Of a stretch of DNA of 64,000 nt, positions 55,746 to 61,583 are shown piece after piece (position 1 is the stretch's first letter; each line of letters begins with the position of its first letter). This stretch comes from Flavobacteriaceae bacterium (GTDB lineage: Bacteria > Bacteroidota > Bacteroidia > Flavobacteriales > Flavobacteriaceae): the NCBI GenBank assembly GCA_014238425.1, contig JABABD010000022.1, forward strand, positions 1 through 64,000, given 5' to 3'. The position numbers and the translations under genes were made by a program. The notes under the pieces are model-generated. The model worked only from the letters and a program-made list of their open reading frames with translations, did not search any database and was not told where the DNA came from.

Positions 55746-55847
55746 TGTCACCTCGAGCATTATCGAAATCCATATATATTTGGATTGAAGATAGTAATCG
55801 CAGCTTAACGAGAGGTTATTTAGGTCTCGACTCCGCTCGACCCGACA
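55746..55847. repeat. Paired inverted hairpin repeat without a gene (MITE/REPIN-like)
   Basis: The left end (55746-55766) begins TGTCACCTCGAGC and agrees at 16 of 21 positions, without gaps, with the left end of the GIY-YIG element at 59845. The right end (55823-55847) begins GGTCTCGACTCCGCTCGACC and ends GACA; it differs from the right end of that element at two positions. About 56 bp with an inner AATCC/GGATT hairpin lie between. It fills the kynurenine operon gap before kmo and looks like a non-autonomous copy. Confidence 0.72.
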
Positions 55848-57663: not shown

Positions 57664-58398
57664 ATGATTGCATTTTTTCGTCATATCCGAAAATCATTAC
57701 TCATGGGAAACAATACATCAAAATACTTTAAATACGCCATTGGAGAAATAGTACTGGTAGTCATTGGTATTTTAATTGCACTTAGTATTAATAACTGGAA
57801 TGAAACAAAAAAAGAAAAAGAGCGACAAGTCTTAACAGAGATTATCTCAGATTTAGAGCATACACTTTTAGATTTAGATAGAGTTATCAATAAAAGAACC
57901 AACAATTTAAACAGAACTATTAATTCGATTAAAACAATAATTGATGTCCTTGAAACTAATAAACCTTATCATGATTCTCTAGCTTATCATTTTAGAGCAG
58001 TAAACGCTTACGATGATATTGATTTTAAAACCAGTGGTTATCAATCTTTAGTATCAATAGGAACTGACCTTGTTGAAAACCCTAAGCTTCGTTCAGCTAT
58101 TGGAAAATTCCATACCTCATCTATTGACAATACTAAAGGAAGTTTTCAAGAGGTACATTTAGATTTTTATAGCTATATGATAGAATATTACAGAAAAAAA
58201 ATCACGACAGTTTTTGGCGAAAATTCTAGTGAAAAAATAGAACCCAATGATTTTGAAACATTAAAAAAAGACAAAGAATATGTACAGTCATTAAAAGCCT
58301 TTTTGAGTGTAAACACAGGTTATCTTGACACCTTAAATAAGGTCAAAGATGAAGCAGAACAATTAAAAGTTGATATAAAAAACTATTTAACAAATTGA
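57664..58398 (+). CDS. DUF6090 membrane protein
   Basis: This 244-residue protein has the hallmark N-terminus of DUF6090: FFRHIRKSLLMGNNTSKYFKYAIGEIVLVVIGILIALSINNWNE, with a membrane helix near 29-45, then a helical extracytoplasmic domain. These proteins are very common in Flavobacteria and have no known function. The gene starts directly after ridA and overlaps the dehydrogenase start, so it is translated together with the kynurenine enzymes. Confidence 0.82.
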   Translation: MIAFFRHIRKSLLMGNNTSKYFKYAIGEIVLVVIGILIALSINNWNETKKEKERQVLTEIISDLEHTLLDLDRVINKRTNNLNRTINSIKTIIDVLETNKPYHDSLAYHFRAVNAYDDIDFKTSGYQSLVSIGTDLVENPKLRSAIGKFHTSSIDNTKGSFQEVHLDFYSYMIEYYRKKITTVFGENSSEKIEPNDFETLKKDKEYVQSLKAFLSVNTGYLDTLNKVKDEAEQLKVDIKNYLTN

Positions 58399-59834
58399 AC
58401 ATACAAAACTACATAAACGGGAATTTTCATAATCCAATTCAAGGCAACTGGATAGACAACTATAACCCATCTAATGGAGAAATTTACGGGCAAATACCTA
58501 ACTCATCTAAAGAAGATGTAGAGAATGCCTATATCGCTGCAAAGTCAGCATTTCCTGTGTGGTCTCAAACTACTCTCGAAGAACGCAGTCGAATCATGAT
58601 TAAGATTTCGGAGTTACTAGAAGTAAATTTGCAACATTTCGCAGAAGCGGAGAGTAAAGACAATGGAAAGCCCGTTTCTTTGGCAAAAACCGTAGATATC
58701 CCAAGAGCTGCAAGTAATTTTAGATTCTTCGGCAATGCTATCACGCAGTTTGCAAGTGAAAGCCATGAAAGTATTGGTCAGCAAGCCATCAACTATACAT
58801 TACGACAACCAATTGGCGTTGTAGGCTGTATTTCACCTTGGAATCTCCCACTCTATTTGTTTACATGGAAAATTGCACCCGCTATTGCAGCTGGAAATTG
58901 TGTGGTCGCTAAACCGAGTGAAGTCACGCCAATGACAGCGTATTTACTAGGAGAAATCTGCAACGAAGCAGGATTGCCAAGAGGCGTTTTAAATATAGTT
59001 CATGGCTTGGGAACAACTACTGGTCAAGCCATTGTTGAGCATCCAGACATTAAAGCCATTAGTTTTACTGGAGGTACGGCAACAGGAGCACATATCGCTA
59101 GAGTTGCTGCGCCGATGTTTAAGAAACTATCTTTAGAATTAGGTGGTAAGAATCCTAACATCATATTCGCCGATTGTGATTATGACGACATGCTAAGCAC
59201 AACGGCTCGCTCGTCTTTTGCGAATCAAGGGCAGATATGTTTATGTGGAAGTAGAATCTTTGTTGAAGCCTCAATTTATGAGAAATTCAAAGTAGATTTT
59301 GTTGAAAAAATCAAGAAATTAAAAGTGGGGCATCCATCAGAAGAATCAACAAATATTGGAGCTTTAGTCTCCAAACCACATTTAGAAAAAGTCATGCAAT
59401 ACATTGATATTGCAAAAGAAGAAAACGGAAAGATTCTTTGTGGCGGAAACGAAGTAACTGTAAAGGGTTACGAAAACGGGTATTATCTAGAACCAACAGT
59501 AATCGAGGTACCTAATGACGAATGTCGTGTGAATCAAGAAGAAATATTCGGACCTGTTGTAACTATCATGCCATTTGATTCAGAAGACGAAGTGCTTCAG
59601 ATGGCAAATAAAGTGAAGTACGGACTATCAGCAACGCTTTGGACCAATGACCTAAAACGTACTATGCGTATGAGCAACCAATTGCAAGTAGGAATTGTAT
59701 GGGTAAACACATGGATGATGCGAGATTTACGCACGCCCTTTGGCGGAGTAAAAGCAAGTGGTGTAGGTCGCGAAGGTGGATTTGAAGCGTTACGATTTTT
59801 TACCGAAGCTAAGAATGTGTGTATAAAATATTAA
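58395..59834 (+). CDS. Aldehyde dehydrogenase, probably 2-aminomuconic-6-semialdehyde dehydrogenase
   Basis: This 479-residue protein uses a TTG start that overlaps the preceding TGA. It has the NAD-dependent aldehyde dehydrogenase motifs: GCISPWNLPLYLFTWKIAPAIAAGNCVVAKPSE, SFTGGTATGAHIA, catalytic Glu in LSLELGGKNPN, and catalytic Cys in FANQGQICLCGSRIFV. In this operon the substrate is most likely 2-aminomuconate semialdehyde, the product of ACMSD. The assignment of substrate rests on context. Confidence 0.92.
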   Translation: MNIQNYINGNFHNPIQGNWIDNYNPSNGEIYGQIPNSSKEDVENAYIAAKSAFPVWSQTTLEERSRIMIKISELLEVNLQHFAEAESKDNGKPVSLAKTVDIPRAASNFRFFGNAITQFASESHESIGQQAINYTLRQPIGVVGCISPWNLPLYLFTWKIAPAIAAGNCVVAKPSEVTPMTAYLLGEICNEAGLPRGVLNIVHGLGTTTGQAIVEHPDIKAISFTGGTATGAHIARVAAPMFKKLSLELGGKNPNIIFADCDYDDMLSTTARSSFANQGQICLCGSRIFVEASIYEKFKVDFVEKIKKLKVGHPSEESTNIGALVSKPHLEKVMQYIDIAKEENGKILCGGNEVTVKGYENGYYLEPTVIEVPNDECRVNQEEIFGPVVTIMPFDSEDEVLQMANKVKYGLSATLWTNDLKRTMRMSNQLQVGIVWVNTWMMRDLRTPFGGVKASGVGREGGFEALRFFTEAKNVCIKY

Positions 59835-59844
59835 TAAACCAAAA

Positions 59845-59869
59845 TGTCTCCTCGAGCGCAGTCGAGAGG
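59845..59869 (-). repeat. Left hairpin repeat of the GIY-YIG element
   Basis: Read on the minus strand it is CCT-CT-CGA, loop CTGCGC, TCG-AGG, then AGACA. The blocks TGTCTCCTCGA and TCGAGAGG recur exactly in the valS repeat. It lies 10 bases after the stop codon of the dehydrogenase gene. Confidence 0.75.
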
Positions 59870-59874
59870 TTTTT

Positions 59875-60195
59875 ATGAAACTATATTACGTTTACATACT
59901 CGAATGTTTTGATGGACTAACTTACACAGGTGTTACAAATAATATTTTAAAGCGTTTGGAACAGCATCAAAAGGGGTTAAATAAAAGTTGTTTCACATAT
60001 CGAAGAAGGCTTCTAAAATTAATTTTTCAACAAGAGTTTAACGATATTGAACAAGCTATACATTTCGAAAAGAAAATTAAAAATTGGAGTGGGAAAAAGA
60101 AACTAGCTATAGCAAATGGAGAGTATGATTTGTTACAAATTTTATCTGAATGTAGAAATGTTTCACATTCAAAATACAAACCAGAAACTAAATAG
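59875..60195 (+). CDS. GIY-YIG endonuclease-domain protein
   Basis: This 106-residue protein is a single GIY-YIG nuclease domain of the UvrC-like/UPF0213 kind: YYVYILECFDGLTYTGVTNN has the two-strand motif (VYI 6-8, YTG 17-19), then R27 and H31 in LKRLEQHQKG and the metal-binding E65 in AIHFEKKIKNW. All expected catalytic positions are occupied. There is no extra DNA-binding domain. It is the only gene in the operon with no evident link to tryptophan degradation, and hairpin repeats enclose it closely. Confidence 0.92.
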   Translation: MKLYYVYILECFDGLTYTGVTNNILKRLEQHQKGLNKSCFTYRRRLLKLIFQQEFNDIEQAIHFEKKIKNWSGKKKLAIANGEYDLLQILSECRNVSHSKYKPETK

Positions 60196-60219
60196 GTCTC
60201 GACTGCGCTCGACCAGACA
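60195..60219 (+). repeat. Right hairpin repeat of the GIY-YIG element
   Basis: It reads GGT-CT-CGA, loop CTGCGC, TCG-ACC, then AGACA. A near-identical copy (two changes) forms the right end of the 55746-55847 repeat. Its first base is the last base of the GIY-YIG stop codon; it ends 11 bases before the SDR start. Confidence 0.75.
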
Positions 60220-60230
60220 AAAACATAAAT

Positions 60231-61013
60231 ATGGATTTAAAACTCAACAATAAAAAAGCACTTGTCTGCGGTAGTACTGCAGGAATAGGAAAAGCAACCG
60301 CTATAGCTTTGGCAGCAGAAGGTGTTCAAGTAACACTAATCGCCCGAAACGAAAACAAATTGAAGGCTGTTCTAGAAGAATTACCTCAGCAAAGATCACA
60401 TGATTATATTGTTGCAGATTTTTCTAATCCTGAAGCATTAAAAACAATCGTTTCAGAATATGTATCCAAAAATCACGGGTTTCATATCTTAGTTAACAAT
60501 ACAGGAGGTCCAAAAGGAGGTCCTGTATTTTCAGCAGAGATCAATGAGTTTGAAAATGCCTTTACACAACACCTTAAATGCAATCATGTGTTAGTGCAAA
60601 CCGTTGTTCCTTTTATGAAAGCGCAAAATTATGGTCGTATTATTAATGTCATTTCAACCTCCGTAAAACAACCACTAGATGGTCTTGGTGTTAGCAATAC
60701 CATTAGAGGTGCTGTGGCCAATTGGAGCAAGACACTTGCTAACGAACTCGGGCAGTTTGGCATTACTGTAAATAATGTGTTGCCTGGTGCAACAGCTACA
60801 GAACGTTTATCTGAAATCATAAAGAACAAATCAGCTAAAAGTGGTGTATCTGAAGATGAGGCTAGCAATGCTATGAAGAATGCCGTTCCTGCAAAGCGTT
60901 TTGCAAAACCTGAAGAAACAGCAAATGCTATAACCTTCTTAGCAAGTGACGCTGCCAGTTACATTAACGGAATTAATCTTCCTGTTGATGGAGGACGAAC
61001 AAAATCTTTGTAA
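60231..61013 (+). CDS. SDR-family protein with altered catalytic motif
   Basis: This 260-residue protein has the Rossmann motif of short-chain dehydrogenases (KKALVCGSTAGIGKATAIALAAEG), the NNTGG loop and VISTSVKQP with the active-site Ser. The usual YxxxK is missing: the aligned stretch reads SNTIRGAV, so Tyr and Lys are replaced. The C-terminus (AITFLASDAASYINGINLPVDGG) is normal. A redox role is therefore uncertain. It lies in the kynurenine operon before HAAO. Confidence 0.85.
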   Translation: MDLKLNNKKALVCGSTAGIGKATAIALAAEGVQVTLIARNENKLKAVLEELPQQRSHDYIVADFSNPEALKTIVSEYVSKNHGFHILVNNTGGPKGGPVFSAEINEFENAFTQHLKCNHVLVQTVVPFMKAQNYGRIINVISTSVKQPLDGLGVSNTIRGAVANWSKTLANELGQFGITVNNVLPGATATERLSEIIKNKSAKSGVSEDEASNAMKNAVPAKRFAKPEETANAITFLASDAASYINGINLPVDGGRTKSL

Positions 61014-61049: not shown

Positions 61050-61583
61050 ATGAGCAAATTAGTTTCTCCGTTGAATTTTAAAGCATGGATTGAAGAAAAC
61101 AGGCATTTATTAAAACCGCCTGTTGGCAACAAATGTGTTTGGAAAGATGGCGATTTTATAGTGATGGTCGTTGGCGGACCAAATAGTAGAAAGGATTATC
61201 ATTATAATGAAACACCAGAATTTTTCTACCAACTTGAAGGTGATATCGTCTTAAAAATTATTGATAAAGGCACTCCCAAGGATGTCCATATAAAAGAAGG
61301 AGATATTTATTTATTACCACCAAAAGTACCGCATTCGCCTCAACGTGGTGCTAATACAGTAGGTTTGGTTATTGAATATAAACGTCCTAAAGGCATGCGA
61401 GATGCTTTGCTTTGGTTCTGCGAAAATTGTGTTACTAAACTCTATGAAGAAGACTTTACAGTAAAGAACATAGAAACAGACATGCCAAAGATTTTTGATA
61501 ATTATTATAGCGACCATGACAAACGTAGTTGTCCAAACTGTAGTGAAGTTATGCAGCCGCCTAAAAAAGTTCAAATTGAATAA
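61050..61583 (+). CDS. nbaC: 3-hydroxyanthranilate 3,4-dioxygenase
   Basis: This 177-residue cupin enzyme opens the ring of 3-hydroxyanthranilate. The iron ligands are likely H51 and E57 in DYHYNETPEFFYQLEGD and H95 in VPHSP. The C-terminal second metal site has C124 and C127 (FCENC) and C161 and C164 (CPNC), as in bacterial HAAO with a rubredoxin-like iron. The symbol follows the Pseudomonas name. It is 34 bases before the ACMSD gene. Confidence 0.95.
   Translation: MSKLVSPLNFKAWIEENRHLLKPPVGNKCVWKDGDFIVMVVGGPNSRKDYHYNETPEFFYQLEGDIVLKIIDKGTPKDVHIKEGDIYLLPPKVPHSPQRGANTVGLVIEYKRPKGMRDALLWFCENCVTKLYEEDFTVKNIETDMPKIFDNYYSDHDKRSCPNCSEVMQPPKKVQIE

Follow-up and report, generated by a model that had tools for sequence, protein, structure and literature searches.

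The window, i.e., the whole 64,000-nucleotide stretch of DNA that was analyzed, contains a run of genes that matches a kynurenine-degradation operon, and the Pfam matches of the surrounding genes agree with the operon context proposed earlier from the letters alone (hereafter, the sequence-only reading). Apart from the operon members listed in Table 1, the same run encodes an FAD monooxygenase, a RidA-like protein, an amidohydrolase, and an O-methyltransferase. An intergenic position in this run is occupied by a unit measuring 375 bp from tag to tag, in which a gene for a 106-amino-acid GIY-YIG protein is enclosed by two inverted 25-nt hairpins whose TGTC tags both face outward. The GIY-YIG gene between inverted 25-bp, TGTC-ended repeats that the sequence-only reading had described was thereby confirmed at 59845-60219, including the 5-base spacer on one side and the stop-codon overlap on the other; the inverted arms (59845-59875 and 60189-60219) share 84% identity over 31 nt. 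Its remark that related ends occur nearby without the gene also holds, as a gene-less tag-outward pair (55746-55847) lies in the same operon as the gene-bearing unit. The left-hairpin architecture given in Table 1 was derived from covariation across 30 genomic copies, and the 3-hydroxyanthranilate dioxygenase gene served as the marker for locating orthologous sites in relatives.

Table 1. Positions of the GIY-YIG unit, the gene-less hairpin pair, and neighboring operon genes in the window.
Feature	Position	Strand	Description or basis
Left half of gene-less pair, TGTC hairpin with extended loop	55746..55816	+	Subfamily shared with the left hairpin of L038, the orthologous element in genome G007
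Right half of gene-less pair	55822..55847	-	Directly upstream of the FAD-monooxygenase gene
Aldehyde dehydrogenase (ALDH)	58395..59834	+	Upstream operon neighbor; Pfam Aldedh
Left REP-like hairpin TGTCTCCTCGAGCGCAGTCGAGAGG	59845..59869	+	TGTC tag outward, CCTC/GAGG stem, tandem G.A/A.G mismatch, G-C, loop
Spacer TTTTT, 5 nt	59870..59874	+	From hairpin to ATG
GIY-YIG nuclease gene, 106 aa, Slx1/UPF0213-like	59875..60195	+	ORF, Pfam, solved structures, residue conservation
Right REP-like hairpin GGTCTCGACTGCGCTCGACCAGACA	60195..60219	-	Inverted, TGTC outward; 1-base overlap with the stop codon
Short-chain dehydrogenase (SDR)	60231..61013	+	Downstream operon neighbor; Pfam adh_short
3-Hydroxyanthranilate dioxygenase	61050..61583	+	Pfam 3-HAO; kynurenine-operon marker

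The protein encoded in the unit matches the GIY-YIG profile PF01541 (Pfam, E 3.9e-16), which is the only domain found in it, and retains the catalytic residues Tyr7, Tyr17, Arg27, His31, and Glu65, positions that vary little or not at all among its homologs. With a single GIY-YIG domain and the catalytic Tyr, Tyr, Arg, and Glu, it has the features of the prokaryotic Slx1-like (UPF0213) proteins, which are likewise minimal and single-domain, and its nearest solved structures by sequence, 1zg2 and 1ywl, both belong to that group. Bacterial Slx1-like proteins were described as a DNA repair family of mainly vertical descent, without a link to repeats (Dunin-Horkawicz et al., 2006; PMC1564403), unlike the hairpin-flanked genes reported here.

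The hairpins of the unit belong to a dispersed, multicopy repeat family. The 15-nt hairpin core has three matches in the window where 0.32 are expected, and the window genome (G000) holds 30–34 copies of the hairpin, including 30 with at most one mismatch to the core and several tag-out pairs; a reversed-pattern control gave no match in the whole window genome. Across the 30 copies, TGTC and the core TCGAGCGnAGTCGAGA hardly vary, and compensated swaps among G-C, C-G, T-A, and A-T affect two stem positions, which remain paired in 27/30 and 29/30 copies. The resulting stem covariation of 0.457 compares with 0.113 ± 0.025 after shuffling (reached in 0/500 shuffles) and with at most 0.148 when partner positions were slid. 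Because the stem covaries, it is the hairpin structure that is maintained, beyond the sequence alone. DNA energy folding of the window hairpin performed no better than shuffles, because the folding model gives no credit to the tandem GA step that covariation supports. An Rfam search gave no match at gathering score, and identity with an Rfam RNA element was accordingly rejected. The family in the window follows a plan of a 4–5 bp outer stem, a tandem G.A/A.G step, a closing G-C pair, and a loop, without a CCA tail, and many families in relatives share this plan with other stems and loops, e.g., TTCGAGT..GTATCGAGAA, CTGAGC..GTCGAAG, ATTCTGAAC..GTGAAGAAT, and ATTGCGAGG..CGAAGCAAT.

Flanking by such hairpins is a property of the gene well beyond this operon. 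Two sets of homologs were compared, one from 60 relatives and one comprising 80 loci obtained by scanning 84,980 species with one protein query, of which 73 loci were scorable for hairpins. Inverted repeats scoring at least 16 enclose 52% of the relatives' genes and 73% of the multi-phylum genes, vs. 2% and 6%, respectively, at shifted positions (in the same loci for the relatives). In the multi-phylum set, a tag-outward hairpin is present on at least one side of 84% of the genes and on both sides of 53% (3% and 1% at shifted positions), and the control arrangement with both tags inward reaches 4%. Among the relatives, the any-side fraction was 16% with a strict hairpin detector that lacks the tandem GA step, 40% with a looser version, and 49% with a GA-aware detector that was designed after inspection of this same set; the latter found hairpins on both sides in 25%, vs. 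4% (any side) and 0% (both) at shifted positions. The sequence-only reading had named homologs without flanking hairpins as refuting it, and some do exist: 46/57 relatives' genes are flanked by a hairpin or inverted repeat, and about 19% are unflanked by the criteria used, after exclusion of six genes from other GIY-YIG subfamilies. None of these six, from the same genomes, has a tagged hairpin (0/6).

Hairpin-bearing loci span 19 named phyla, and most multi-phylum loci have the perfect-stem form and a CCA tail. Genes of S. meliloti, A. lipoferum, and N. aromaticivorans in plasmid-collection records are enclosed by hairpin pairs, the A. lipoferum unit lying between sufB and sufC, and the N. 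gonorrhoeae gene is located within a dRS3 cluster. Units with both hairpins have a median length of 385 bp (interquartile 366–413); the median spacing is 21 nt between the first hairpin and the start of the gene and 11 nt between its stop and the second hairpin. A plasmid copy in Rhizobium tumorigenes has no clear flanking hairpins within 150 bp. Phage records gave no match, and carriage by phages was discarded as an explanation. At L116 and at G015:C15:33639-36834, whole hairpin-gene units, or their hairpins, are amplified head-to-tail in tandem.

GIY-YIG genes of other subfamilies were seen in different settings. A gene in the window genome (L282, G000:C40:220189-220407, - strand) is bracketed by direct repeats of 54 bp (98% identity), which contain the tRNA-Phe 3′ end with its terminator, and is possibly a tRNA-targeting GIY-YIG mini-element. 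A related gene (L281, G000:C22:143484-143702, + strand) lies immediately before tRNA-Asn and has upstream of it a 19-nt partial copy of the tRNA-Asn 5′ region. Members of a further subfamily (L098, G026:C2:2393830-2394072; L091, G033:C12:314570-314794) are inserted at the start of epimerase-like ORFs, the first codons of which (TGGAGF) are duplicated either side of the GIY-YIG gene.

It might be argued that REPs and small orphan genes simply gather in permissive intergenic gaps with no functional link, given that REPs are abundant and that both are intergenic. The shifted and tag-inward controls above contradict such a coincidence, as does the absence of tagged hairpins beside the other GIY-YIG subfamilies, and a comparison of arms within single genomes points the same way: the two arms of one gene match (score of at least 15) in 61% of cases, vs. 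8% for arms of different genes (p = 7e-12). Further, the hairpins follow the enzymes. Hairpin similarity tracks protein similarity both among the relatives (r = 0.25) and in the multi-phylum plus plasmid set (r = 0.41), with 0/999 permutations in either case; the protein tree requires 28 hairpin-type changes, vs. 63 with shuffled labels, and the split between mismatched-stem (GA) and perfect-stem hairpins requires only three. The multi-phylum correlation could be inflated by base composition and shared ancestry, two factors that bear less on the within-genome and same-family tests. Within the bacterial family of the window, at least five family-1 hairpins are found in 7/7 genomes that have the clade of the window's protein and in 8/30 others (p = 6e-4), and at least three family-2 hairpins in 7/7 genomes with clade 2 and in 4/30 others (p = 3e-5), while the crossed comparisons are non-significant (p = 1 and 0.4). 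The hairpins are thus not equally common where the cognate clade is missing, in line with the sequence-only reading, although orphan hairpin families do occur, and G021 (family 1) and G048 (family 2) are hairpin-rich without the cognate clade. Several GIY-YIG clades coexist in genome G015, each with its own hairpin family. With this congruence between clades and hairpins and their clade-specific co-occurrence, mere coincidence is scarcely credible. The single hairpin family noticed in the sequence-only reading is real, and it is one of many, each paired with its own enzyme clade.

Comparison of orthologous gaps indicates that the units come and go. In the comparison that the sequence-only reading had suggested, empty sites were found at the operon in relatives: the ALDH-SDR junction has a gap of 5 and 3 bp in two genera. 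Three genomes, one of them that of a congener, have gene-less tag-outward pairs from other families at this junction, and the window genome and a further genus have gene-bearing units there. Among 47 genomes with adjacent trpB and trpA, 12 have an empty junction, 10 have a GIY-YIG unit, and several have gene-less or decayed pairs; the units there represent at least two clades and hairpin families, with a third family in the separately found locus L108. Between fnrL and fixJ, some Sphingobium plasmids have a unit and others a single palindrome with tags at both ends, and the gap in S. herbicidovorans lacks a unit. In two of these plasmids (L270 and L271), a near-perfect palindrome with CGTC tags at both ends stands where relatives have the full unit, which is what would be left if the two hairpins had undergone a deletion between their repeated stem halves. 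At a Bradyrhizobium site, another species (G149) has a contiguous joined-flank match at 67% identity, too diverged for the ends to be read, and the empty sites observed are in diverged relatives rather than in near-identical genomes. Abutting direct repeats of at least 3 nt occur at 1.6% of 61 units, vs. 2.7% in shuffled pairings, i.e., there is no target-site duplication at the unit ends, and a DDE-type insertion (insertion sequence or MITE) was rejected on this ground.

The main rival to movement of the unit itself is homing, in which the GIY-YIG gene would be a parasite that cuts pre-existing REP pairs of one family and inserts its own copies there; the repeats would then be its target and not its ends, and would spread by other means. 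GIY-YIG is a classic homing fold, the same gaps also hold gene-less pairs of other families, and insertion sequences are known to target REPs (PMC1525189). Free-standing GIY-YIG homing endonucleases have the catalytic fold in common with the protein described here and a similarly selfish-looking distribution; unlike them, the unit in the window has its own tagged hairpin ends and neither an intron or intein location nor NUMOD domains. Homing into pre-existing pairs does not readily explain wholly empty sites next to filled ones, with a gap of 3–5 bp or of zero length, nor a gene-less pair that contains remnants of the gene (L226) and looks like a deletion product. Moreover, no other dedicated enzyme is known for CGTC/TGTC REPs, and the window genome has no Y1_Tnp match. 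The empty sites and the gene remnants inside gene-less pairs favor movement of the unit, and we regard homing as unlikely.

Alternatively, the protein might be a structure-specific repair nuclease of the host that trims REP cruciforms and is kept near its substrate for regulation, not for mobility. This would fit the cleavage of branched DNA by Slx1-type GIY-YIG relatives (PMC1564403), the strong purifying selection on long-retained copies (dN/dS of 0.04–0.10 in deeper comparisons), and the retention of one site between genera (L001 and L038, dS 1.4). Such retention across genera means that the activity of the element must be low. A maintenance function is difficult to reconcile with several clades in one genome, each with its own hairpin family, with repeated and independent occupation of the same operon gap, and with the patchy presence of the gene, of which decayed copies and pseudogenes were found; the window genome (3.75 Mb, 40 contigs) has several GIY-YIG homologs, some of them fragments or with internal stops. 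We therefore consider host maintenance quite improbable, and return to movement of the hairpin-bounded unit.

The closest parallel to such a unit is found in REPtrons, in which GTAG REPs accompany a RAYT (TnpA-REP) gene (Nunvar 2010; PMC2817692). RAYT enzymes recognize folded single-stranded REPs and depend crucially on the GTAG tag; the REPs themselves come in bulged and perfect forms (PMC8266576). In both systems, a small enzyme gene is flanked by inverted hairpins with a tetranucleotide tag 5′ of the hairpin, mismatched-stem and perfect-palindrome types occur, gene-less inverted pairs are multicopy, and each hairpin family has its cognate enzyme. The REPtron enzyme is a Y1 HUH (IS200/IS605-like) transposase and its tag is GTAG, whereas here the enzyme is a GIY-YIG hydrolytic nuclease and the tag [C/T]GTC. 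Because the enzyme and the tag differ, the system falls outside the definition of a REPtron, although it appears to work like one. The Y1_Tnp profile (PF01797) gave no match in the window genome, and a RAYT as the mobilizer there was rejected; a relative, G008, has 14 Y1_Tnp matches.

The tags point to another group of repeats, the CGTC/TGTC REP superfamily, which includes dRS3 of Neisseria and RPE-4 and RPE-6 of Rickettsia and apparently has no dedicated transposase (Di Nocera 2013; PMC3733652). Most multi-phylum loci share with these REPs the tag, outward head-to-head pairs, heterodimers, CCA-type tails, and AT-starting stems, and in CGTC-REP species named in that study, S. meliloti, A. lipoferum, and N. 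aromaticivorans among them, such repeats were also found beside GIY-YIG genes. The window family has an unpaired CGTC/TGTC-type tag on one palindrome end and dispersed tag-out pairs; it lies outside CGTC-1 to CGTC-4 as defined, because these have a perfect 8–9 bp AT-starting stem, a loop of 4–5, and a CCA tail, from which its stem and tail differ. The GIY-YIG-linked hairpins are thus in or beside the CGTC/TGTC REP superfamily.

Taken together, small Slx1/UPF0213-like GIY-YIG genes of Flavobacteriaceae relatives and of 19 named phyla are associated with tag-outward [C/T]GTC hairpins, and this points to the small GIY-YIG nuclease as the long-missing partner enzyme of CGTC/TGTC REPs. The proposal in the sequence-only reading of a REP/RAYT-like system with a GIY-YIG enzyme is strongly supported as an association, through the flanking, the match between clades and hairpin families, the empty and filled sites, and the lack of a Y1_Tnp match, while cutting and mobilization of the hairpins by the nuclease are what we infer from it; the idea holds in large part and reaches further than the sequence-only reading had put it. 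With a probability of roughly 0.7, we interpret the unit as a minimal self-contained REP-type element, whose nuclease recognizes the folded hairpin of its own family, cuts, and initiates mobilization.

GIY-YIG enzymes hydrolyze DNA without a covalent intermediate. A DNA-protein link is hence not expected here, in contrast to REPtrons, and because hydrolysis leaves no covalent link, host replication or repair must do the copying or joining. The nuclease might recognize its hairpin folded in single-stranded or cruciform DNA, with the tag, the stem, and the GA step as likely determinants, and a cut placed beside the tag could begin the copying or excision of the hairpin-bounded unit. The cargo would be its own gene or, in trans, a gene-less pair, and re-insertion would be finished by host replication and repair. 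Since Slx1-type enzymes cut branched DNA, recognition of a folded hairpin and a cut beside the tag make the most economical model, in which GIY-YIG nucleases would have for CGTC/TGTC REPs the role that RAYT (TnpA-REP) has for GTAG REPs. We also lean, with less assurance, toward the broader view that GIY-YIG-driven elements with hairpin ends (about 385 bp) form a separate, bacteria-wide class of mobile elements, from which CGTC/TGTC REPs such as dRS3, RPE, and their relatives originate.

To our knowledge, about 385 bp from tag to tag is among the smallest self-encoded units. The open-access literature that we searched, a scope that leaves aside subscription papers and preprints, yielded no paper linking small GIY-YIG genes to these REPs, and the novelty of the link is provisional. 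CGTC/TGTC REPs rank among the commonest small bacterial repeats, and the pairing names a candidate enzyme for them among genes that usually carry no annotation beyond "GIY-YIG nuclease family protein" or "excinuclease ABC subunit C", making the question directly testable. If true, the mechanism would be independent of HUH, DDE, serine, and tyrosine recombinase chemistry, and the REP-plus-enzyme arrangement would have at least two origins, with unrelated enzymes that converged on tagged hairpins of both mismatched-stem and perfect-stem forms.
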